This document shows, one piece after another, positions 9,856 through 52,786 of a DNA stretch of 64,000 nt. Every line of letters starts with the position of its first letter. Positions within the stretch are counted from its first letter, which is position 1. Under the pieces are notes generated by a model, which did no database searches, had not been told where the DNA came from, and saw only the letters and a program-made list of their open reading frames with translations. The stretch covers positions 248,001 through 312,000 of the forward strand of contig NZ_STGI01000006.1 in NCBI RefSeq assembly GCF_004804275.1, read 5' to 3'. This DNA comes from Herbaspirillum sp. ST 5-3. Its GTDB lineage: Bacteria > Pseudomonadota > Gammaproteobacteria > Burkholderiales > Burkholderiaceae_D. The position numbers and the translations under genes were made by a program.

Positions 9856-10761
9856 ATGACTTACGAGACGATCAAATACGACATCCAGGAAAATATTCTC
9901 ACCATTACCCTGCACCGTCCGGAGAAGCTGAACGCTTTTACCGGCACGATGATGCTGGAGCTGATTGACGCCTTCGACAAGGCCGATGCCGACGACGAGG
10001 TGCGCGCGATCATCGTGACCGGCGCGGGCCGTGCCTATTGCGCCGGCGCCGACCTGTCGTCCGGCGCCAAGACCTTCGACTTCGCGGCGCGCGAAGACCG
10101 GCCCGACAAGCAAGGCACGCCGCGCACGGCGGACGGTGAAGTGGACTGGAGCCATGCATCGGTGCGCGACGGCGGCGGGCGCGTGTCGCTGCGCATCTTC
10201 GAATGCCTCAAACCGGTGATTTCCGCCGTGAACGGCGCAGCCGTCGGTGTCGGTGTCACGATGCAGTTGCCGATGGACATACGCATTGCCTCGGAGGACG
10301 CACGCTTCGGCTTTGTGTTCAACCGCCGCGGCATCACGCCGGAAGCCTGTTCGAGCTGGTTCCTGCCGCGCCTGGTCGGCATCAGCAAGGCGCTGGAATG
10401 GACTTATACCGGCCGCGTGTTCTCCGCGCAGGAAGCACTTGAAAGCGGACTGGTGCAACAGGTGTGCAAGGCGGAAGACCTGCTTCCCACGGCGCGTGCC
10501 CTGGCGCGCGAGATCGCCGACAACTGCGCACCGGTCTCGCTTGCGCTGACACGGCAAATGATGTGGCGCATGCTCGGCGCGGAACACCCGATGGATGCGC
10601 ACCGCATCGACAGCCGCGCCATCTACGCCCGCGGCGCCGCGCCCGATGCCAAGGAAGGCGTGATGTCCTTCCTCGAAAAGCGCCCGGCGAAGTTCATCAA
10701 CAAGGTATCGCAGGACATGCCGTCCTTCTTCCCGTGGTGGGAGGAGAAGGAATACAAGTAA
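9856..10761 (+). CDS. enoyl-CoA hydratase/isomerase (crotonase family)
   Basis: A 301-residue crotonase-fold enzyme, probably hydrating a 2-enoyl-CoA in fatty-acid or aromatic-acid breakdown. The family core is clear: HRPEKLNAFTGTM at the N-terminus, the CoA/oxyanion loop GAGRAYCAGADLS near residue 56, GAAVGVGVTMQLPMDIRIA near residue 130, and the GITPEACSSW segment carrying the conserved PE glutamate. An insertion of about 35 residues (roughly 75-110, rich in Asp and Gly) follows the oxyanion loop, making it longer than the usual 260. Upstream spacing is consistent with a weak AACGGAAAAG site. It stands alone with no beta-oxidation partner nearby, so the substrate is undetermined. Confidence 0.9.
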   Translation: MTYETIKYDIQENILTITLHRPEKLNAFTGTMMLELIDAFDKADADDEVRAIIVTGAGRAYCAGADLSSGAKTFDFAAREDRPDKQGTPRTADGEVDWSHASVRDGGGRVSLRIFECLKPVISAVNGAAVGVGVTMQLPMDIRIASEDARFGFVFNRRGITPEACSSWFLPRLVGISKALEWTYTGRVFSAQEALESGLVQQVCKAEDLLPTARALAREIADNCAPVSLALTRQMMWRMLGAEHPMDAHRIDSRAIYARGAAPDAKEGVMSFLEKRPAKFINKVSQDMPSFFPWWEEKEYK

Positions 10762-10789
10762 AGGCGCGGCTTGTGCAGCGCTGCTCGCG

Positions 10790-11692
10790 TCAGACCCGCA
10801 CCGGCGCAGTGGCGAGCAGGATGCCGGCCAGCGAGACGGCGAAGGCAGCCATCTGGATGCCGGTCAGCGTCTCGCCGAGCACCACGACACCGACCAGCGC
10901 GGCGCTCACCGGCAGCATCACGGTAAACACACCGGCCTGCGCAGCGGGAACCGACTTCAGACCGGTCATCCACAGCCACACCGTCCACACGCTCGCCGCC
11001 AGGCCGTAAAACACCAGCAGCAGCCATATCCCGGGCTGCACAGCCGCGAAGTTGAAGCCGAACGCCATGGACAGTGCGAGCGGCGTCATCAGCGCGAAGC
11101 CCCACAGATTGATGATGGCGCTGATGCGCTTGGGACTCAGCACTGCCGTGAGCTTCTTGCCGATCACCGCATAAGACGCTTCGCAGAGCACCGCCCCGAA
11201 CACCAGCAGGTTGCCGAGCCAGGCCGTCTGCTGCGCATCGCCCGCCGCATGCGAAGGCTTGGCCAGCGACAGCAGGCCAATGCCGATCGCACCGCACGCC
11301 ACCGCCGCCCAGATGCGCGCTCCGATGCGCTCCCTAAGAAAGATCCAGCTCATCAGCGCAATCACCGCCGGAATGGTCGCCATGATTACGCCGGCCGACA
11401 CTGCGCTGGTCATGCGCACGCCAGAAATCATGCAGATCGTGAACAGGAAATTGCCGAGGAAGGATTCAAGGAACACGAGTTTTTTGGTCTGCCGCGACAT
11501 CGGCTGCTCGTTCGCCGGCTTCTTCAGCCAGCGCAGCATCGCCAGCCCGCCGATGCCGAAGCGCAGCCAGGCCAAGAGAAAAACAGGAAAGACGATGGCC
11601 AGCGGTTTGGTCAGCGCGACATAGCTGCCGACGAGGGACATGGAGAGGGCGAGGCAACCATAGGCGATGGGGCGGCTTGGGGTGTAGCTCAT
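10790..11692 (-). CDS. EamA/DMT-superfamily transporter
   Basis: A 300-residue inner-membrane protein with about ten hydrophobic segments arranged as two EamA halves, the pattern of drug/metabolite exporters (RhaT/YdcZ-like). Typical features include the N-terminal helix pair ending in FPVFLLAWLRFGIGG and the second-half segment WTVWLWMTGLKSVPAAQAG. The family exports amino acids, metabolites or drugs; the substrate cannot be predicted from sequence. It converges with the enoyl-CoA hydratase gene, only 28 bases apart, and has no operon partner. Confidence 0.88.
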   Translation of the reverse strand: MSYTPSRPIAYGCLALSMSLVGSYVALTKPLAIVFPVFLLAWLRFGIGGLAMLRWLKKPANEQPMSRQTKKLVFLESFLGNFLFTICMISGVRMTSAVSAGVIMATIPAVIALMSWIFLRERIGARIWAAVACGAIGIGLLSLAKPSHAAGDAQQTAWLGNLLVFGAVLCEASYAVIGKKLTAVLSPKRISAIINLWGFALMTPLALSMAFGFNFAAVQPGIWLLLVFYGLAASVWTVWLWMTGLKSVPAAQAGVFTVMLPVSAALVGVVVLGETLTGIQMAAFAVSLAGILLATAPVRV

Positions 11693-44323: not shown

Positions 44324-46168
44324 ATGTGGATCAGCGTGTGTTGGACCAGAATTTCTCGCAGGCTGTTGTTCGGCCTGATCCTTCTTGCCGGACTGGCAAC
44401 CAGCGCCACGGCCGACGATTTCCTCGCGCCCGAGCAGGCGTTCGCTTTCTCCGCCAAGGCGGTTGACCGGCAGACCGTGCGGCTGCATTGGGACATCGCT
44501 CCCGGCTATCACCTGTATCGCGAGCGCATCGAGGTGCAGCCGGAGTCGAAGGAAGTGCAACTGGAGCCGCTCGCGCTTCCGCCCGGAAAAGACCAATTCG
44601 ATCCCAATTTCAACAAGACCATGGCGATCTATGAGGGAGCGCTGGATGTGGACGTACACCTCATCAGGGGCAGCAAGAGCATGCCGGTCAGCGTGGGGTG
44701 GCAAGGATGTGCCGATGCAGGGCTGTGCTATCCGCCGGCCACGAGCAGGCTTGACCTGGCGAGCGTGGGGCTTGCCGCTGCGGACGACGCGCCGCTGACG
44801 GCACAGCCGGTTTCAGCCGCGCCGTCGCAGCAGGCCGCATCGGCGACGGACTCGATCGCATCAACGCTGGCATCGGGGAGCCTGCTGCGCACGATGGGCA
44901 TGTTCTGGCTGGCCGGGCTGCTGCTGTCGTTCACGCCGTGCGTACTGCCGATGGTGCCCATCCTGTCCTCGCTGATCGCGGGCCAGTCCGGTACCGTGAG
45001 CCGCGGCAAGGGATTTGCTCTTGCGCTGGCCTACTCGCTCGGCATGGCGCTGGTTTACGCCGCATTCGGCGTCGCGGCCGGCCTGGCCGGTGAAGGGCTG
45101 GCGGCGGCGCTGCAGAACCCCTGGGTGCTGGGCGCCTTTGCGCTGTTGCTGACGGCGCTCGCGCTGTCGATGTTCGGCTTGTACGAACTGCAGATGCCGA
45201 GCGCAATCCAGAGCCGCGCCACCGGCTGGTCCAACCGGTTTCGGGGCGGCTCCTTTGTCGGCGTTTTCATCATGGGCGGTGTCTCGGCGCTGGTTGTAGG
45301 GCCGTGTGTGGCCGCGCCGCTGGCCGGTGCGCTGGTCTATATCGCGCAAACGCATGATGTGCTGCTGGGCGGAGCGGCCCTGTTCGCGATGGCGCTGGGC
45401 ATGGGTGTGCCGCTGCTCCTGGTCGGCCTGTCGGCGGGGAGCCTGCTGCCGCGGGCCGGCGCCTGGATGGAACGCGTCAAGCAGCTGTTCGGCATGATGC
45501 TTCTCGGGGTTGCGGTCTGGATGGTGTCGCCAGTGCTGCCGGCTGCGGTGCATATGCTGCTGTGGGCGGCATGGCTGCTGACGGCTGCTGCGCTTCTCGG
45601 ATTGTTTGGCGCAGCGGCATCGCAGTCGAGCCCGCCGGTTGCGGCGCGTGCGGCAGGCGCGGGTCTTCTGGCGCTGGCGATAGTGCTGCTGGTGGGCGCG
45701 GCGTCGGGAGGGCAGTCAGTGCTGCAGCCACTGGCACATCTGCGCGCAATTCCTGGCACTGCTGGCGCTGCCGGCAATGCTGTGACCGCCGCGCGCTCCG
45801 GCCTGCAATTCGAGCGCGTGACCAGCACACAGGCGCTCGATGCCGCGCTGGCGCAAGCGCAGCAAAAGGGGCAAGCGGTGATGCTGGATTTTTATGCCGA
45901 CTGGTGCGTGTCGTGCAAGGAATTCGAGAATTTCACCTTCAGCGATCCGCAGGTGAAGGAACGCCTGGGCAAGGTGCGGCTGCTGCAAGCCGACGTGACC
46001 GACAACAACGCGGAACAGAAAGCCTTGCTCAAGCGGTTCGGTCTGTTCGGCCCGCCGGCCATCGTCTTCTTTGACAGTGCCGCGACCTCACGTGTGACGC
46101 ACAAGGTGATCGGTTACCAGCCGCCGAAGGATTTCCTCGCGTCGCTCAGCACCGCCGCCATCCGCTGA
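44324..46168 (+). CDS. dsbD: thiol:disulfide interchange protein DsbD
   Basis: A 614-residue DsbD that carries electrons from cytoplasmic thioredoxin across the inner membrane to periplasmic partners. A signal peptide and alpha domain with CADAGLC (near residue 135) precede eight transmembrane helices containing the two membrane cysteines (FTPCVLPMVP and VGPCVAAPL), and the C-terminal gamma domain has thioredoxin motif FYADWCVSCKEFE near residue 525. GGAGG precedes the ATG. DsbD feeds reducing power to cytochrome c maturation and DsbC; here the nearby TlpA-like redoxin is a likely client. A shared palindrome upstream suggests common control. Confidence 0.95.
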   Translation: MWISVCWTRISRRLLFGLILLAGLATSATADDFLAPEQAFAFSAKAVDRQTVRLHWDIAPGYHLYRERIEVQPESKEVQLEPLALPPGKDQFDPNFNKTMAIYEGALDVDVHLIRGSKSMPVSVGWQGCADAGLCYPPATSRLDLASVGLAAADDAPLTAQPVSAAPSQQAASATDSIASTLASGSLLRTMGMFWLAGLLLSFTPCVLPMVPILSSLIAGQSGTVSRGKGFALALAYSLGMALVYAAFGVAAGLAGEGLAAALQNPWVLGAFALLLTALALSMFGLYELQMPSAIQSRATGWSNRFRGGSFVGVFIMGGVSALVVGPCVAAPLAGALVYIAQTHDVLLGGAALFAMALGMGVPLLLVGLSAGSLLPRAGAWMERVKQLFGMMLLGVAVWMVSPVLPAAVHMLLWAAWLLTAAALLGLFGAAASQSSPPVAARAAGAGLLALAIVLLVGAASGGQSVLQPLAHLRAIPGTAGAAGNAVTAARSGLQFERVTSTQALDAALAQAQQKGQAVMLDFYADWCVSCKEFENFTFSDPQVKERLGKVRLLQADVTDNNAEQKALLKRFGLFGPPAIVFFDSAATSRVTHKVIGYQPPKDFLASLSTAAIR

Positions 46169-46207: not shown

Positions 46208-47335
46208 TCAGGTTTCGATTTCCAGCTCGGTCACCATCAGCACATCGCCTGCCTTGTTGCCCTTGACCTTCACCTTGATTCCCGCCTTGAGGTCGGCAGC
46301 GGTGCCATGACTGATCACGGCTTGCGAGGCATCGCAACGCTGTCCGCGCACCACGAAGTTGGCAACACTGGTGAATTGCTCGATGGTCGCCTCGATTTCC
46401 ACTTCCGTCAGCGTTTGCTCGCTCTCGGCTTCCAACTTGGTCGCCTTCAGCACGCCGGCCTGCCACGTGCCCTCGGCCTCGAGCCGGGCGCCGGCGGTGA
46501 TCTGCAGCGTGGACGGACTCAGGACCGCGCTGCTCGCATCGACCTCGATGCTGCCCATCATGAAATGACGGGCCGACAGCACACTGGTCACGACGCCTTC
46601 GACTTCACCCTCGCCCTGCGCGGTTCCCGCAAGCGGGCCTTGCAGCCTGACGCTCGCGACCTCCAGACTGTCACCCGCGGCAGATAGCGTGCCGGTGACC
46701 CGCACCAGGTCGCCTGCGTTCAATGTCCCGGCCGCTGTACCGGTCAGCACGACGCCATTGAGCAAGCGCTGGCCGCTGGTCACGCCGACCACGCCGCTGC
46801 TCACGGCCGCCGTGTCCGGGACGATGGCCACGCGGGTTGCCGTCCAGCTGCGTCCGTCGGCGCTCGCCTGCAATCCCCACACCGCCACGCGCAAGCCGGG
46901 CGACAACTGCGCCGCCGAGGCAACGCCGTCGAACATGGTGCCGCTGTCGGTCTTGATGGTCATGCCGTTGAGCGTGAACTGACCGGCGGCAAGCTGCGAA
47001 ATCACGCCCTGCGCCACCGACCATACCTCGATCCGCTCGGCGGTACCCAGGGTCGGCGTCGCGCCGCGCTGTCCCTGCACGCTGGCCACCATGCCGATGC
47101 GCAGGTCGGACGAGCGCGCCGCCATGCCGTTCACCTGAACCGTCGCATTCACGTCATCGAACTTGATGTTGTTGACCACGACGCTGCCGAAACCGGAGAT
47201 CGACCCTTGCGCATACATGCCGGTGCCGCCCGTGCCAGGCATTCCGACCTGCGTCCCGCCCCCGCAGGCCACGAGGGCCGATATGGCAATGGCGAGCACG
47301 CTGCGCCGCGACAGTCTCACTGTCCAAGGTTTCAT
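46208..47335 (-). CDS. DUF5666 lipoprotein
   Basis: A 375-residue exported lipoprotein. ATG 47335 overlaps the DUF6502 stop (ATGA). The signal peptide ends in a lipobox (ISALVACGGG). The mature part is made of about five repeated beta modules of 60-70 residues, each with a Gly-rich turn and a strand like GSISGFGSVVVNNIKFDD or VEGVVTSVLSARHFMMGSIE, the DUF5666 pattern (OB-fold-like). The C-terminal module has one Cys (RGQRCDAS). Function is unknown; as a secreted multi-module beta protein it may be a surface scaffold. Coupled to DUF6502 and adjacent to redox genes. Confidence 0.85.
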   Translation of the reverse strand: MKPWTVRLSRRSVLAIAISALVACGGGTQVGMPGTGGTGMYAQGSISGFGSVVVNNIKFDDVNATVQVNGMAARSSDLRIGMVASVQGQRGATPTLGTAERIEVWSVAQGVISQLAAGQFTLNGMTIKTDSGTMFDGVASAAQLSPGLRVAVWGLQASADGRSWTATRVAIVPDTAAVSSGVVGVTSGQRLLNGVVLTGTAAGTLNAGDLVRVTGTLSAAGDSLEVASVRLQGPLAGTAQGEGEVEGVVTSVLSARHFMMGSIEVDASSAVLSPSTLQITAGARLEAEGTWQAGVLKATKLEAESEQTLTEVEIEATIEQFTSVANFVVRGQRCDASQAVISHGTAADLKAGIKVKVKGNKAGDVLMVTELEIET

Positions 47336-48267
47336 GTTGACCTCTTTCGTCTGGTTTTCGACGCGGCCGCTTTGGCCGCCTTGCTGTTGGATGCGGTGTC
47401 GGGCTGGGGCGCGTCGTGGAAATAGACGCCGAAGCGGATCCGGTGTTTTGCTCCCTCGCTGCCGGCGCTGCGCTGCTTCGCGGCGGACGCCATCTGCAGG
47501 AATTGCTGCAGGGCGGTGCTCCACAGGCGGCGCGCCAGTTGCTGCAGCTGCTCGGCCTCGACAGGCGGGAGATTCTCCAGGAAGGCGCTTTGCTCCAGCA
47601 TCAGCGGATTGCGCCGGCCGGGTGCCAGGTTGTGGACGGCGGTGGCGAGGTGGTCGCTGACGTTCGCTGCGAGGAAATGGAAGGATTCGCTCAAGCCCTT
47701 GTTCGGCACAAAGGATGTCGACTTGAGATGCACGTAACCGTCCTCGCTCAGTTCCACCACACCCAGCCGATCCAGCTCGTCCAGCACGGCGCGCGCGCCC
47801 ACGTCGCGCGTGACCTCGGCGACCAGCGTGCTGAAGTCCGGCTCGCCGGCATGGCCCCGCTTCGGCGTGCGCGCCAGCGGGCGGGCGGTCTGTTCCGCCG
47901 TCAGGAAGCGCGGCTCGCTGATCCAGCGTGCCACCACCGATGCGGCCACGGGCACCATGGGCGGTGCCGGATCGGCAGCGGCCGGCGTATCGCGCAGGCG
48001 TTTCACGTCCTTGCGATGGACGCCGGTCAGGATCGCAATGCGGGCGTCCGAGCTGCCCTTGTCGGCCAGGCCGTAGGCGCCGACGGCTTCATCCACCAGC
48101 GCCTTCTTCAGCAGTTCCACCATGGAAGGCAGTTGCAGGCCGTGGTCAATCATCAGCCGCGCCAACGGCTGCAAAAGGCGTGCGATGGCCTCTGCCGCGA
48201 GCGCCGGCTCGGGCAGGCCCGAGGCGGGCTGCGCTTCGGGTTCGGCAGGTGGTTTGCGCGCGCTCAT
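47332..48267 (-). CDS. DUF6502 putative regulator
   Basis: A 311-residue cytoplasmic protein of the DUF6502 family. The N-terminal 100 residues look like a helix-turn-helix region (LARLMIDHGLQLPSMVELLK, SDARIAILTGVHRKDVKRLR), which supports DNA binding. The middle has VLDELDRLGVVELSEDGYVH, a winged-helix-like segment, and the C-terminus is a helical region ending in a basic tail. It is divergent from the tlpA-like operon and shares an intergenic region holding GGGAAATTTTCCC, also found upstream of dsbD. I infer it is the regulator of this block; not demonstrated. Confidence 0.75.
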   Translation of the reverse strand: MSARKPPAEPEAQPASGLPEPALAAEAIARLLQPLARLMIDHGLQLPSMVELLKKALVDEAVGAYGLADKGSSDARIAILTGVHRKDVKRLRDTPAAADPAPPMVPVAASVVARWISEPRFLTAEQTARPLARTPKRGHAGEPDFSTLVAEVTRDVGARAVLDELDRLGVVELSEDGYVHLKSTSFVPNKGLSESFHFLAANVSDHLATAVHNLAPGRRNPLMLEQSAFLENLPPVEAEQLQQLARRLWSTALQQFLQMASAAKQRSAGSEGAKHRIRFGVYFHDAPQPDTASNSKAAKAAASKTRRKRST

Positions 48268-48512: not shown

Positions 48513-49025
48513 ATGAAAAATCTCCACCTACCAGCGGTCATGGCGACCGGCGTCGCCTTCGCGGCGCTGCTATGCGTTCCGGCGCAGGCCGTCGAAACCG
48601 GCCAGTCCGCTCCCGATTTCGAACTGCCCGGCCGGGCCAGCGCCGTCAAGCTCAGCGACTTCAAGGGCAAGACCGTCTACCTGGATTTCTGGGCATCCTG
48701 GTGCGGCCCCTGCAAGCAGTCGTTTCCGTGGATGAACGAGATGCAGTCCCGCTATGGCAGCAAGGGATTGCGGGTGGTGGCGGTCAACGTCGATCAGAAG
48801 CCCGACGACGCAAAGGCATTCCTCAGCGCCAACCCCGCCGGCTTCGACGTGGCCTTCGACCAGGCCGGCAAGGTCCCGCACGCTTATGCGATCAAGGGCA
48901 TGCCGACCTCGATGCTGATCGGGCCGGACGGCAAGGTGCTGATGGTGCACGGCGGCTTCAAGGAAGAGAAGCGCGAGGAACTGGAGCGCCACATCAAGAC
49001 CGCGCTCAATCTGAAGGATCAATGA
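48513..49025 (+). CDS. TlpA-like periplasmic thioredoxin
   Basis: A 170-residue redoxin. ATG 48513 has AAGGAG nine bases upstream and gives a signal peptide (MATGVAFAALLCVPAQA). The body is a TlpA/ResA-type thioredoxin fold: APDFELPGR, LDFWASWCGPCKQSFPWMNE with the active-site WCGPC, and the cis-proline loop GMPTSMLIGPDG. Such proteins reduce specific periplasmic disulfides, for example in apocytochrome c or copper-site proteins, using electrons from DsbD or CcdA. First gene of an operon with DUF4266, DUF3570, apbE and a cytochrome lipoprotein; its stop overlaps the next start. Confidence 0.93.
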   Translation: MKNLHLPAVMATGVAFAALLCVPAQAVETGQSAPDFELPGRASAVKLSDFKGKTVYLDFWASWCGPCKQSFPWMNEMQSRYGSKGLRVVAVNVDQKPDDAKAFLSANPAGFDVAFDQAGKVPHAYAIKGMPTSMLIGPDGKVLMVHGGFKEEKREELERHIKTALNLKDQ

Positions 49026-49249
49026 TGAAGACGGCCCTCCTCCTGATGTCCCTCGCGGGCCTGTCGCTGCTCGGCGGCTGCGCCAATCTCGGCCAGGTCA
49101 GCCCCTGGGAAAAAGGCAATCTCGCCAAGCCGGCCATGACTTTCGAAGGCGATCCGCTCGACCAGCGCTTCGTGCAACACATCTACGGCAGCAAGGAAAA
49201 CTCCAGCGGCGGCTATGGCGTCGGCGGTGGCGGCTGCGGATGCAACTAG
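49022..49249 (+). CDS. DUF4266 small lipoprotein with a Cys-Gly C-terminus
   Basis: A 75-residue lipoprotein of the DUF4266 family. The signal peptide ends in lipobox LLGGCANL. The mature part is about 55 residues (VSPWEKGNLAKPAMTFEGDP, then DQRFVQHIYGSKE) and ends YGVGGGGCGCN, where two cysteines two apart in a Gly tail look like a metal or heme/flavin attachment or a thiol relay. The start overlaps the TlpA-like stop (ATGATG). Always small and found beside DUF3570 genes, so a role together is likely. Whether the tail is modified is unknown. Confidence 0.85.
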   Translation: MMKTALLLMSLAGLSLLGGCANLGQVSPWEKGNLAKPAMTFEGDPLDQRFVQHIYGSKENSSGGYGVGGGGCGCN

Positions 49250-49260
49250 AGGACGAACCC

Positions 49261-50439
49261 ATGACGAAGAATTCCCACGGTCCACAGGCCGCGACCGGCG
49301 TGCTGCTCGCGTCGCTGATGCTGCCCGGCCTGGCGGCGCTGAGCGCCCTCGCGCCATCGAACGCATCGGCGGAAAACGCCCCGGAAAAAACCACCATCGG
49401 CGTCAAGTACGGCAGCTACAAGGACAGCCAGCCCGGCTGGGAGCGCGTCAAGGTCAACGCGCCGCAGGTCTATGTGCAGGCACCTGTCGCCGGCGAATGG
49501 TCGATCGAAGGTTCCGCCGTGGCCGACAGCGTCTCGGGCGCGTCGCCGCGCATGCATACGCAGCGTTCGGGCGCCAGCAACATGAGCGACGAGCGCAAGG
49601 CCGGCGACTTCAAGGTGACGCGCTACATGCCGCGTGCCGCCGTGTCGGCGAGCGTGGCGTACTCGGACGAACACGACTACACTTCGCGCGCCTTCGGCAT
49701 CGACGGCCGCTGGTCTTCCGAGGACAACAACCGCACCTGGACGCTCGGCTACGGCACCTCGATCGACCGGATCGACAACACCTCCAACGGCGTCAACACG
49801 GCGATCAACCAGCGCAAGCGCACCCATGAAATCATGGCCGGCGTCACGCAGGTGCTGACTCCCGCGGACATCGCGCAACTCAACATCACGCGCAGCACCG
49901 GACACGGCTACTTCAACGACCCCTACAAGTCGTTCGACCAGCGGCCCGGCGAACGCAATGCGTGGATCGGCCTGGTGCGCTGGAACCACTATGTCGAACA
50001 GTTCGGCGCCGCGCTGCGCAGCAGCTACCGCTACTACAGCGATACCTTCGGCGTGAAATCGCATACCGTGGGCCTGGACTGGGTGCAGCCAGCGGGCAAG
50101 TGGACCCTGACGCCGGGCGTGCGCTACTACACGCAAAGCGCGGCGCATTTCTACCTCGATCCGAAGTTCGATGCCCAGGGCGGATACGACATGACCGCCA
50201 CCATCCTCGGCGCGATTGCCGTGCCGGGCGACAAATCCTTCGACCAGCGGCTCGCCGCCTTCGGCGCCACCACGCTGTCGATGAAGGTCGCCTACGCCTT
50301 CACGCCGGACACGAGCGCCGACATCAAGGTCGAGACCTATCGGCAGACGTCCGGAATGCGCTTGGGCGGGAATGGCAGCCCCGGCCTCGATCCCTTCCGC
50401 GCGCGCTTCATGCAGGTCGGCCTGACCCATCGCTTCTGA
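49261..50439 (+). CDS. DUF3570 outer-membrane beta-barrel protein with flavinylation-like motif
   Basis: A 392-residue protein of the DUF3570 family. ATG 49261 has GAGGA upstream and gives a signal peptide (VLLASLMLPGLAALSALAPS, then NASA). The mature part alternates polar and hydrophobic residues in many beta-strands and ends GLTHRF with a terminal Phe, the mark of outer-membrane barrels. Near residue 90 is VADSVSGASPRMHT, which fits the D-x-x-[ST]-G-A-[ST] site where ApbE attaches FMN in NqrC/RnfG-type proteins; a second SGAS follows. With apbE next door, covalent FMN attachment is a strong inference. Confidence 0.85.
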   Translation: MTKNSHGPQAATGVLLASLMLPGLAALSALAPSNASAENAPEKTTIGVKYGSYKDSQPGWERVKVNAPQVYVQAPVAGEWSIEGSAVADSVSGASPRMHTQRSGASNMSDERKAGDFKVTRYMPRAAVSASVAYSDEHDYTSRAFGIDGRWSSEDNNRTWTLGYGTSIDRIDNTSNGVNTAINQRKRTHEIMAGVTQVLTPADIAQLNITRSTGHGYFNDPYKSFDQRPGERNAWIGLVRWNHYVEQFGAALRSSYRYYSDTFGVKSHTVGLDWVQPAGKWTLTPGVRYYTQSAAHFYLDPKFDAQGGYDMTATILGAIAVPGDKSFDQRLAAFGATTLSMKVAYAFTPDTSADIKVETYRQTSGMRLGGNGSPGLDPFRARFMQVGLTHRF

Positions 50440-50448
50440 AGGTGACCA

Positions 50449-51405
50449 ATGAGCCGCTGGCGAACCCTGCGTTTTGACTTCCAGTCCATGGCCTCTCCCT
50501 GCAGCCTGCAGATGGATGGCCAGGATGAGCGCGCCATGCGTCGGGCCGCCACGGATGCCATCGCCGAAGTGCGCCGCATCGAGGAAAAGTTTTCGCGCTA
50601 CCGCGAGACGAGTGTCATCAGCCGCATCAACCGGGCCGCCGGGGCGCAGGCTGTGGACGTGGATGCCGAAACCGCCGGCCTGCTGGATTTCGCGCAGCAG
50701 CTCTGGATGCTGAGCGACGGGCTGTTCGACATCACCTCGGGCGTGCTGCGCCGTGCCTGGGATTTCCGCAAGGGCCGCCTGCCCGAACCCGCAGCGCTGG
50801 ATGCGCTGATGCCGCTGGTGGGATGGCAACACGTCGAGCGCGACGGCAACAAGCTGCGATTGTCGCTGTCCGGCATGGAGCTGGACTTCGGCGGATTCGG
50901 CAAGGAATACGCCGTCGATTGCGCTGCCGCGGTCCTGCAAGGCCACGGCATCGCGCACGCGCTGGTCAATCTCGGCGGAGACCTGTACGCACTGGGCGCA
51001 CGCGGTCTGCCGGAGCACGAAGGTGAGCCCTGGCTGGTCGAGATCCAGCATCCGCGGCCCGATCCGGCCAGGCCCGCAGCGCCGCTGGCACTGCTGCCGC
51101 TGGCGCGCGGCGGCCTGACCACCAGCGGCGACTACGAACGCTTTTTCATGCACGAAGGACAGCGCTATTGCCACATCCTGAATCCCCATACCGGCTGGCC
51201 CGTGTCGCACTGGCAGTCGGTGAGCATCCTGGCGGCCAATGCCACGACCGCCGGCGCGCTGTCAACCATCGCCATGCTGAAAGGCCCGGAGGCCATCGAC
51301 TGGCTGCAAACCCAGAACGTGCGTTATCTGGCCGTGCAACACGACGGGCAGGTGGTGCGCAACGGCACTGCCGACATCGGCGACCAGCTTCGCCAACAAG
51401 CATGA
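50449..51405 (+). CDS. apbE: ApbE-family FAD:protein FMN transferase
   Basis: A 318-residue ApbE protein, transferring FMN from FAD to a Ser/Thr of a target protein. Family motifs: EEKFSRYRETSVISRINRAA, FDITSGVL, GGFGKEYAVD, NLGGDLYALG, TTSGDYERFF and HILNPHTGWP. Two oddities: there is no signal peptide or lipobox, although most ApbE are periplasmic; and the C-terminal metal-binding stretch usually written ADALAT is AGALST, so the Mg-ligand Asp is Gly. It lies 9 bases after DUF3570 in the same operon. Either a divergent active form or a specialised subfamily. Confidence 0.9.
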   Translation: MSRWRTLRFDFQSMASPCSLQMDGQDERAMRRAATDAIAEVRRIEEKFSRYRETSVISRINRAAGAQAVDVDAETAGLLDFAQQLWMLSDGLFDITSGVLRRAWDFRKGRLPEPAALDALMPLVGWQHVERDGNKLRLSLSGMELDFGGFGKEYAVDCAAAVLQGHGIAHALVNLGGDLYALGARGLPEHEGEPWLVEIQHPRPDPARPAAPLALLPLARGGLTTSGDYERFFMHEGQRYCHILNPHTGWPVSHWQSVSILAANATTAGALSTIAMLKGPEAIDWLQTQNVRYLAVQHDGQVVRNGTADIGDQLRQQA

Positions 51406-51457: not shown

Positions 51458-52786
51458 ATGAAAAATTCCGCATCCCGATTCACCCTGGGCCTGATCGCCA
51501 CTGCCGTCATGACGCTCACCGCATGCGGCGGCGGAGGCCCAGGCACGCCGGGGACAGCGAGCAGCACGCTGACGCCCACCGTCATGGACGGCCTGGTCCA
51601 GAACGCGCTGGTCTGCGTCGACAGCAACAGCAACGGCGTCTGCGATACGGGCGAAATCCAGGGCCGTACCGACGTCAACGGCAAGGTCACGCTGGACGTC
51701 GGCACGACCGACGTGTCCAACGCGCGACTGGTCGCGATGGTGGGCACGGACGCCACCGACGCCGACACCGGGCCGGTCACCACGCCGTATACCTTGATGG
51801 CGCCGGCGGGCAGGCACGACGTGATCAGCCCGCTGACCGACATGGTGCAGGCCAAGATCCGCCGCGACAAAGTCGGCGTCGAAGCCGCGGAAGCCTATGT
51901 CAAGACGCAAACTGGCCTGAATATCTCCATGTTCGATGACTTCATCGCCAAACGCTCCCAGAGCGCCGAACACAGGAAAGCCGGCGAGATCGCCCGTCTG
52001 CTCGTCGTCAGTGCACAAAAATCCAGGCGTGCCGGTGCCGGCGCAGCCGCGAACGCCACCGCTTGCCAAACCGAGTCGGAGCACGAACATGACCAGGACC
52101 ACACCGAAGCCAGTCGCATCGACGACGATCTCGTGACCAGGCTGGGCGAGATTCGCACGGTTTCCGACGAAATCGAACACGAGGCCTGCGCCAGCGGCAG
52201 TTTCGCGAGGGACTGCGATAGCAGCATTCAGGTGAAGGCCCTTGTGCTGAGTTGCGGGACGACAGGCGCGACGACCGGTACGACGACTGGCACGACCACA
52301 GGCACAACGACTGGTACGACGACCGGCACGACCACAGGCACAACGACTGGTACGACGACCGGCACGACCACAGGTACAACGACTGGTACGACGACCGGCA
52401 CGACCACAGGTACAACGACTGGTACGACGACCGGCACGACCACAGGCACAACGACCGGCACAACGACCGGCACGACCACAGGCACAACGACCGGCACGAC
52501 AACAGGCACAACGACGGGTACGACGACCGGCACGACGACAGGCACAACAACGGGGACAACCGTATCTGCCACCAACGGCAAGACGCTGTATGCCGCCAAC
52601 TGCGCGATCTGTCACGGAGTCAATCCGGCTCTGAACACCAACAAGATTCTGCTCGGCGCCAACTCACCCAACACCATCCTCAACGCCATCGCATCAAACA
52701 AGGGTGGGATGAGTTTCCTGTCGGCGACCATCAAGAGCACGCAGGCAAGCGATATCGCAGCCTATCTGGCTAACCCCGGCATTTAA
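51458..52786 (+). CDS. lipoprotein with a TGTT-repeat stalk and C-terminal cytochrome c domain
   Basis: A 442-residue exported lipoprotein (lipobox TLTACGGG). The N-terminal domain contains VCVDSNSNGVCDTGEI, a calcium-loop-like segment with two Cys, and a beta/alpha region (about 30-265). Then about 25 tandem Thr-Gly-Thr-Thr units form an extended stalk (about 267-368), ending in a mono-heme cytochrome c domain with the CAICH motif, then LNAIASNKGGMSFLSA with a Met ligand candidate. This architecture would hold a heme well away from the membrane. Last gene of the redox operon, followed by a strong terminator. Confidence 0.88.
   Translation: MKNSASRFTLGLIATAVMTLTACGGGGPGTPGTASSTLTPTVMDGLVQNALVCVDSNSNGVCDTGEIQGRTDVNGKVTLDVGTTDVSNARLVAMVGTDATDADTGPVTTPYTLMAPAGRHDVISPLTDMVQAKIRRDKVGVEAAEAYVKTQTGLNISMFDDFIAKRSQSAEHRKAGEIARLLVVSAQKSRRAGAGAAANATACQTESEHEHDQDHTEASRIDDDLVTRLGEIRTVSDEIEHEACASGSFARDCDSSIQVKALVLSCGTTGATTGTTTGTTTGTTTGTTTGTTTGTTTGTTTGTTTGTTTGTTTGTTTGTTTGTTTGTTTGTTTGTTTGTTTGTTTGTTTGTTTGTTTGTTTGTTTGTTVSATNGKTLYAANCAICHGVNPALNTNKILLGANSPNTILNAIASNKGGMSFLSATIKSTQASDIAAYLANPGI
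52255..52562 (+). repeat. 12-bp tandem repeat array encoding the TGTT stalk
   Basis: About 25 units of a 12-base sequence (such as ACGACCGGCACG and ACCACAGGCACA) arranged in part as a 36-base higher-order repeat. Such arrays vary in copy number by slippage, so stalk length may differ between strains. The minus strand carries a fortuitous Val-Pro-rich frame. Confidence 0.9.

Follow-up and report, generated by a model that had tools for sequence, protein, structure and literature searches.

Known DUF3570 flavinylation systems

The closest described relative of the locus treated here is the flavinylation system reported by Meheust et al. (2021, eLife, PMC8238504), in which a flavin mononucleotide (FMN) transferase of the ApbE family acts on a protein of the DUF3570 family. 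According to the available sections of that paper, the DUF3570 protein of Chlorobium luteolum is flavinylated when co-expressed with its own ApbE, and the modification is abolished only when the serines of both of its motifs are replaced by alanine. The same sections describe clusters of DsbD, a thioredoxin-like protein, DUF4266, DUF3570 and ApbE in many genomes. Here, we describe such a cluster from Herbaspirillum sp. ST 5-3, found in a window, that is, a whole analysed stretch of DNA, of 64,000 nucleotides (contig NZ_STGI01000006.1, positions 248,001 to 312,000 of the forward strand). In the coordinates of this window, a gene for a DUF3570 protein (49261..50439) is followed by apbE (50449..51405); unless indicated otherwise, features lie on the plus strand.

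ApbE itself is typically periplasmic, as the accessible text of a 2025 review states, although cytosolic ApbEs exist, for example the one acting on fumarate reductase in Klebsiella. In E. coli ApbE, the portions of the published accounts at hand give D280 as a metal ligand and E169 as a ligand of a second metal, and replacing metal-site residues with alanine left Listeria FmnB with little or no activity. Literature searches for DUF3570 and for DUF4266 returned nothing beyond Meheust et al. 2021. For an ApbE that lacks a leader but serves exported targets, the accessible text of the review contains no mention and no paper titled on it was found, and a search combining flavinylation with type I secretion or RTX gave nothing relevant.

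Since flavinylation of the C. luteolum protein was published in 2021, the window locus is a new member of a known system. A first-pass annotation of this DNA had concluded that DUF3570 carries covalent FMN, which was right in light of the Chlorobium relative; its remark that no experimental demonstration was known for DUF3570 is outdated. It also overlooked two points: the DUF3570 protein has a second motif, and ApbE has no export signal. The parts that seem new are this leaderless ApbE, with a glutamate at position 153, and its link to RTX-repeat proteins. On balance, we think it probable that the locus is a DUF3570 flavinylation system in which FMN would be loaded in the cytosol before export, the loop that bears it would face outward from a barrel, and electrons would reach the flavin from thiols.

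The flavinylation motifs of DUF3570

The DUF3570 protein (392 amino acids; PF12094, E 1.7e-56, 192.3 bits against a gathering score of 25) is the putative substrate of ApbE. As the first-pass annotation had noticed, it contains an SGAS motif and apbE begins nine bases after its gene; the open reading frames (ORFs), Pfam and residues 89-95 bear this out. In fact, there are two [ST]GA[ST] motifs, at residues 92-95 and 103-106. The first belongs to DSVSGAS (residues 89-95, 49525..49545), with Ser95 as putative acceptor, and the second to TQRSGAS (residues 100-106, 49558..49578), which lacks the consensus Asp and has Ser106 as putative acceptor. Among 20,000 composition shuffles of the protein, two or more [ST]GA[ST] occurred in 0.66% and D..[ST]GA[ST] in 0.72%. 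Conservation is a stronger argument for the motif than these rates.

To follow the motif through the family, Pfam searches for DUF3570 were used, which matched 20 of 299 genomes from the window's phylum, 32 of 300 from its order, 85 of 296 from the phylum of a Chlorobiaceae genome and 14 of 145 from that of a Verrucomicrobiaceae genome. The regions taken numbered 80 among the matches listed in the Chlorobiaceae phylum, 52 in the window's phylum and order, and 15 in the Verrucomicrobiaceae phylum. With profiles built from the window proteins and their first relatives, 207 DUF3570 pieces, 185 DUF4266, 158 ApbE and 51 DsbD were obtained in 194 loci. Forty-six of these loci came from a contig scan whose pattern contained the motif, and nine of the 46 duplicate DUF3570 proteins of the motif-blind set. 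Loci and genomes are cited below by L and G numbers, and the type labels are locus ranges assigned by our own reading: Chlorobi-type, L156-L198; Bacteroidia-type, L199-L235; and Verrucomicrobiota-type, L236-L250.

Motif conservation was counted over a non-redundant set of 150 DUF3570 proteins, which came from searches made without the motif, after removal of eight further rows (six short or lacking the motif column, two duplicates). The form [DEN]xx[ST]GA[ST] occupies the motif-1 column in 97 of the 150 (42/51 for the window's phylum, 48/48 for the Chlorobi-type, 7/14 for the Verrucomicrobiota-type and 0/37 for the Bacteroidia-type). When only the 115 proteins with apbE within 2 kb are considered, [ST]GA[ST] stands in this column in 71 (35/40, 28/28 and 8/14 for the window's phylum, Chlorobi-type and Verrucomicrobiota-type, and 0/33 for the Bacteroidia-type), and anywhere in the loop containing the motif in 88 (39/40, 28/28, 10/14 and 11/33, respectively). 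An intact second motif is present in four of the five motif-1 exceptions that the window's phylum shows in this comparison. Thus, the expectation that the motif is kept beside apbE holds for most of the set and breaks down in the Bacteroidia-type. There, 33 of 37 proteins have [ST][SA]AS at motif 1; one subgroup, with DHYTSAS, shows SSAS again at the second site, and another keeps [ST]GAS there. The [ST][SA]AS of L199-L235 may represent either a variant ApbE motif or a loss of flavinylation.

It might be argued that the window protein uses motif 1 only, or neither, and that its second SGAS results from a sequence bias of the family. The missing Asp of motif 2 fits this idea, as does the finding that, in the window's phylum, a second [ST]GA[ST] is present in the N-terminal half of just 21 of the 51 DUF3570 proteins. 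Nevertheless, both serines had to be replaced in C. luteolum, as noted above, and the accessible text of the 2025 review states that changing the Asp to Ala in a fumarate reductase target had little effect. We consider this alternative somewhat unlikely.

The leaderless, Glu153-type ApbE

The apbE product (PF02424, E 3.3e-78) is an FMN transferase without a signal peptide. There is no room for one, because an in-frame TGA (50443-50445) lies one codon upstream of the ATG and the ApbE domain begins at about residue 11. The protein has neither the N-terminal signal peptide nor the lipobox by which canonical extracytosolic ApbEs are recognized. Its active site is also modified: Ser226 and His242 are present, and the Asp of the Asp-Ser-His set is replaced by Gly269 (51253..51255), at a position that aligns with the metal-binding or catalytic Asp in five solved ApbEs (PDB match), the metal ligand D280 of the E. 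coli enzyme. Glu153 (50905..50907), the hallmark of the group to which this enzyme belongs, adjoins the position of E. coli E169 in a register of our own reading.

Export signals were judged by a hydropathy threshold (an 11-residue mean of at least 2.0 for ApbE and 1.6 for DUF3570), which is crude and is not SignalP. By this measure, a hydrophobic stretch precedes the domain in 2 of the 40 DUF3570-adjacent ApbEs from the window's phylum, a set that includes the window enzyme, in 1 of 28 of the Chlorobi-type and in none of 38 from scan-derived loci, four of which repeat motif-blind ones. The stretch is found in all 15 other ApbEs of DUF3570 genomes and in 13 of 14 further canonical ApbEs.

In a tree made by a quick maximum-likelihood method, with long branches flagged, the DUF3570-type ApbEs form one group (one change; Shimodaira-Hasegawa-like approximate likelihood ratio test, 96). 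All 81 rows of this group (80 distinct, the window enzyme appearing twice) have Glu153 and Gly269, as do all 38 scan-derived ApbEs. The other 51 ApbEs in the tree invariably have Gly at position 153, and at position 269 they have Asp (43), Asn (7) or Glu (1). With 14 further ApbEs, where position 153 is Gly in 12 and Leu in two, Glu153 is found in none of the 65 others compared (0/51 and 0/14). Gly269 was also considered as a feature unique to the DUF3570-type, and this was rejected since 10 of the 14 further ApbEs have it too (L320, L323-L331); nine of these 10 carry an Asp a few residues on. From these alignments we infer that an acid moved across the active site, with Asp lost and Glu153 gained. 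Judging from the C. luteolum experiment, Chlorobi-type ApbEs of the Glu153 group are likely active, that very protein not being identified in our set.

A similar association is observed across the window's order. When the window ApbE was compared with its 300 genomes, the 30 best matches scored at least 225 bits and the next 173 bits. DUF3570 genomes hold 29 of these 30; Glu153 is present in all 30 and Gly269 in 29, the remaining sequence being cut off before that position. In the order's three remaining DUF3570 genomes, G316, G326 and G366, the local ApbE is more diverged and still carries both residues (L332-L334).

Some arrangements of this enzyme deserve mention on their own. At L317:8347-9701, in a genome without detected DUF3570, a Glu153-type ApbE stands beside a small protein with an AMTGAS stretch, EF-hand-like by eye, which is a possible other substrate. 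In the Bacteroidia-type, a thioredoxin-ApbE fusion (L235:3818-5377) adjoins DUF4266 and DUF3570.

Topology of the DUF3570 barrel

In its sequence, DUF3570 appears to be an outer-membrane barrel of about 16 strands that follows a predicted signal peptide. The protein has a hydrophobic N-terminus and a C-terminal Phe, and a hydrophobic N-terminal stretch occurs in 149 of 152 DUF3570 proteins at the laxer threshold of 1.6. Across 142 DUF3570 proteins, the spacings between strand centres, in our own strand assignment, show turns and loops that mostly alternate between short and long. Six of the seven even turns are near-constant, with a standard deviation of 0 to 1.3 residues, and a variation of 4.9 to 22 is seen in six of the eight odd loops. 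The loop with the motifs is the most length-variable of the eight, with 29 to 154 residues between anchors. As a rule, short turns of such barrels are periplasmic, and a barrel with an even number of strands has both ends inside. Both motifs would therefore face outward, in an extracellular loop. A profile search of PDB with DUF3570 gave nothing better than E 0.067.

Thirty-two residues are conserved in more than 80% of the set, and in our own mapping many of them are close to where the assigned strands end on the outer side, which suggests that chemistry takes place at the outer face. The beta-barrel predicted by the first-pass annotation agrees with the predicted signal peptide, the C-terminal Phe and, for the most part, the alternation of loops and turns, all of them features of sequence, and its placement of FMN at the cell surface agrees with the same pattern, from which the position itself is deduced. 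In L104-L109, L154 and L155, DUF3570 reaches about 900-1000 amino acids, and the C-terminal extension may be a second barrel.

Flavin attachment before or after export

As ApbE has no export signal, the flavin is probably attached inside the cell, before Sec export. In the scheme that we favor, the DUF3570 precursor, still unfolded, would receive FMN on Ser95 and Ser106 from the dedicated leaderless ApbE in the cytosol, where flavin adenine dinucleotide is made. The flavinylated precursor would then be exported by Sec and become an outer-membrane barrel whose motif-bearing loop is turned outward. Modification of an unfolded protein in the cytosol fits the published experiment, as the C. luteolum DUF3570 was recovered from the pellet under denaturing conditions, and the strategy for the constructs is called similar to that for signal-truncated ones in the available text (PMC8238504). 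Pre-export modification, the surface position, the direction and route of the electrons and the final acceptor are the parts of this scheme that we infer.

Several observations weigh against it. The model would require FMN-bearing chains to pass SecYEG. A hydrophobic ApbE N-terminus is found in 17 of 34 Bacteroidia-type and 4 of 15 Verrucomicrobiota-type enzymes, and the one canonical ApbE in which no clear hydrophobic stretch is seen, L316, belongs to the window genome itself, as its second ApbE. Taken alone, Gly269 does not identify the group; a clean separation is given by Glu153 only. Enzyme and substrate are not strictly paired: G369 has a Glu153-type ApbE without detected DUF3570, G448 has a piece of one at a contig end, and apbE is missing from the 2 kb around DUF3570 in 11 of 51 cases from the window's phylum and in 20 of 48 of the Chlorobi-type. 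Bacteroidia-type DUF3570 proteins that do adjoin apbE lack the glycine of motif 1. In G001, from the window's phylum, the sole ApbE match has a hydrophobic N-terminus and a lipobox (L260), and the closest ApbE to DUF3570 in G015 lies about 12 kb away and begins with a signal-like stretch; because of these two genomes, the leaderless ApbE is not universal where DUF3570 occurs. Finally, the barrel and its topology rest on our own strand assignment, in which one even turn varies (standard deviation, 4.5) and two of the eight odd loops show no variation in length at all.

Alternatively, DUF3570 might be flavinylated in the periplasm after export, either by another, export-type ApbE of the same cell or by the leaderless one arriving by an unknown route. 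In addition to the export-type enzyme that is all G001 shows, none of the 37 DUF3570 genomes tested is without an ApbE, and 26 of them have more than one match; the other ApbEs of such genomes have the hydrophobic stretch in 15 of 15 cases, and the periplasm is the location given as typical in the review. Against this, it is the leaderless type that tracks DUF3570, as seen in 29 of the 30 best matches in the order, and in five genomes (G359, G473, G496, G502 and G553) the single ApbE match is of the Glu153-type and has no hydrophobic stretch. Leaderless RTX proteins with the motif, described below, would also lie beyond the reach of a periplasmic enzyme. Periplasmic attachment seems unlikely to us, and loading in the cytosol is the reading that we retain.

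A separate group of clusters, Gammaproteobacterial and one of the order Burkholderiales (class and order by kinship labels and our own reading), has DUF3570 and DUF4266 with the nearest apbE some 6 to 12 kb off and other exported proteins in between (L282-L285).

Partner proteins and the electron route

In the window, the DUF3570 gene is preceded by that of a small DUF4266 lipoprotein (49022..49249; PF14086, E 2.3e-22), which ends in CGCN, a Cys-X-Cys (49235..49246). DUF4266 is the most constant partner of DUF3570 across sets. At a distance of at most 2 kb, it accompanies DUF3570 in 51 of 51 cases in the window's phylum, 35 of 48 Chlorobi-type, 36 of 37 Bacteroidia-type and 14 of 14 Verrucomicrobiota-type, and the two families occur in the identical 32 of 300 genomes of the order. 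Cys-X-Cys lies at most two residues from the C-terminus in all 171 distinct DUF4266 proteins, as CGCN in 146 of them; this set was found by similarity to the window protein, and forms without Cys-X-Cys may be missed. Thioredoxin reductases have a swinging C-terminal redox arm. By analogy, we propose that the Gly-rich tail of DUF4266, with its terminal Cys pair, could act as a thiol arm to the flavins; redox cycling of this Cys-X-Cys was already suggested in the available sections of PMC8238504.

Upstream of DUF4266 there is a TlpA/ResA-like thioredoxin-fold protein with CGPC, predicted to be exported (48513..49025; Pfam Redoxin/AhpC-TSA), which the ResA and TlpA models match with scores under their cut-offs. 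The candidate electron donor, DsbD (44324..46168; Pfam DsbD_TM, DsbD_N and Thioredoxin_7), ends about 2.3 kb before it, with two minus-strand genes in between. By Pfam, the window cluster, with ApbE, DUF3570, DUF4266, a thioredoxin-like protein and DsbD, fits a DsbD-type flavinylation cluster. Electrons would pass from DsbD to the TlpA-like thioredoxin, then to the Cys-X-Cys tail of DUF4266, to the flavins of DUF3570 and finally to an external acceptor.

The first-pass annotation had joined thiol reduction, flavin and heme into a single redox path. Its thiol part agrees with the DsbD-thioredoxin link to the DUF3570 system already proposed in the available text of PMC8238504, and its heme step found little backing. 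The heme step depended on the next gene downstream (51458..52786), a doubtful member that encodes a lipoprotein with Thr-Gly repeats and a single C-terminal cytochrome c domain (Pfam Cytochrome_CBB3). In the 194 neighbourhoods, both parts of this protein are matched only in L034 and in the window's own locus (L251), so that the lipoprotein was rejected as a conserved part of the system. Loci that match the cytochrome c domain alone number 15 among the 194, and 11 of the 15 are motif-blind loci from the window's phylum, a raw count without a background rate. It is also the sole cytochrome c domain among nine window proteins scanned with Pfam, none of which is a multiheme cytochrome or matches the FMN_bind domain. 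A long Thr-Gly (TGTT) repeat at 52270-52560 is the linker from the N-terminal part of the lipoprotein to this domain.

The same partners would also suit a system that is no electron conduit, in which the outer-membrane role of Cys-X-Cys and flavin would be thiol quality control or the handling of metals, and DUF3570 would be a flavin-dependent thiol oxidoreductase. Cys-X-Cys tails and thioredoxin partners suit metal or thiol chemistry, and VIT1 iron transporters are present in 25 clusters of Meheust et al., according to the available text (PMC8238504). Nevertheless, no metal transporter is found among the nine window proteins scanned. The conserved residues near the outer strand ends point to chemistry at the outer face, although they are compatible with this alternative too. 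All in all, it strikes us as improbable, and a route from thiols to flavin is preferred.

The two minus-strand genes between DsbD and the cluster encode DUF5666 and DUF6502 (46208-48267). In the close relative L034, two minus-strand genes of comparable start and size occupy their place.

RTX-repeat proteins as possible second substrates

ORFs with RTX repeats and immunoglobulin (Ig) domains are found in 44 of 194 loci (Pfam HemolysinCabind, Big_5 and DUF4214 in the members scanned). Among 42 distinct ORFs of this kind, D..[ST]GA[ST] is present in 15, against 0.9 expected from shuffles, and [ST]GA[ST] in 28, against 11 expected. In the Proteobacterial type, the motif is inside an N-terminal domain of about 90 residues. 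In most members, this domain opens directly at the start codon and no signal peptide precedes it. Leaderless RTX/Ig proteins that bear the motif near or in the operon were observed at L047-L049, L052-L054, L057, L058 and L060, at the further loci L062, L065, L071, L076 and L037, and in a near form at L126. For instance, the gene order in L049 is TlpA, DUF3570, apbE, a gene of DsbD size (DsbD by profile) and the RTX gene (10081-11607), while in L052, L057 and L065 the RTX gene starts at most about 20 bases after apbE.

RTX repeats usually mark type I secretion, and proteins secreted in this way make no periplasmic stop. The leaderless RTX proteins are probably exported by type I secretion, and because such substrates skip the periplasm, only a cytosolic ApbE could modify them. 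Those near the operon are thus possible extracellular flavoproteins, as judged from their sequences.

This lead is weakened by how the loci were found. Fourteen of the 15 perfect motifs are from contig-scan loci, and the DUF3570 motif is part of one of the two patterns used in that scan; when the RTX genes were read, those of L062 and L071 alone agreed with this pattern. The 14 also include several near copies, found in related Gammaproteobacteria. In an order-wide search, the loop of the RTX domain has [STA][GS]AS in three of six matches from DUF3570 genomes, exactly [ST]GA[ST] in one of them. Where DUF3570 is absent from the genome, the loop motif is found in none of 13 readable matches, and a single one of these has [ST]GA[ST] outside the loop; an additional match could not be read in the frame used. 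For the window genome itself, the RTX lead was rejected, as its single RTX-domain match lacks the motif.

Taken as a whole, the idea that this branch of ApbE, with its active-site acid moved, loads FMN in the cytosol onto both Sec-exported DUF3570 and leaderless RTX proteins is a tentative one, to which we give not quite an even chance. If a leaderless ApbE does serve exported substrates, flavin-bearing chains would cross SecYEG or a type I exporter, covalent flavoproteins at or outside the cell surface would be made by a pre-export route, and the group of RTX-repeat surface proteins would be possible extracellular flavoproteins. Overall, the interpretation given by the first-pass annotation is partly supported.

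Comparison with known systems

In porin-cytochrome conduits of the MtrCAB type, the proposed role of an outer-membrane barrel is electron transfer at or across this membrane. In contrast to these conduits, the window has no multiheme cytochrome among the proteins scanned, and the putative flavins would be on the barrel itself. With the canonical periplasmic lipoprotein ApbEs of E. coli, Vibrio and Treponema (Ftp), the window enzyme shares the family (Pfam and PDB match) and the conserved Ser and His; it differs from them in the lack of a signal peptide and lipobox, in the Gly that replaces the metal-binding Asp and in Glu153, where they have Gly.

The system of Meheust et al., as presented in the available sections of PMC8238504, has in common with the window locus ApbE, a DUF3570 with two motifs, a DUF4266 ending in Cys-X-Cys, a thioredoxin-like protein and a nearby DsbD. 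In the window, by contrast, two opposite-strand genes stand between DsbD and the cluster, the exported thioredoxin belongs to the Redoxin/AhpC-TSA type rather than PF13899, and ApbE has no export signal, a point that those sections do not discuss. The cytosolic ApbE of Klebsiella pneumoniae that modifies fumarate reductase resembles the window enzyme in having no signal peptide. Nevertheless, as far as the accessible accounts of it go, its target is a soluble, cytoplasmic enzyme, whereas the target in the window is a predicted outer-membrane protein, which would be exported.

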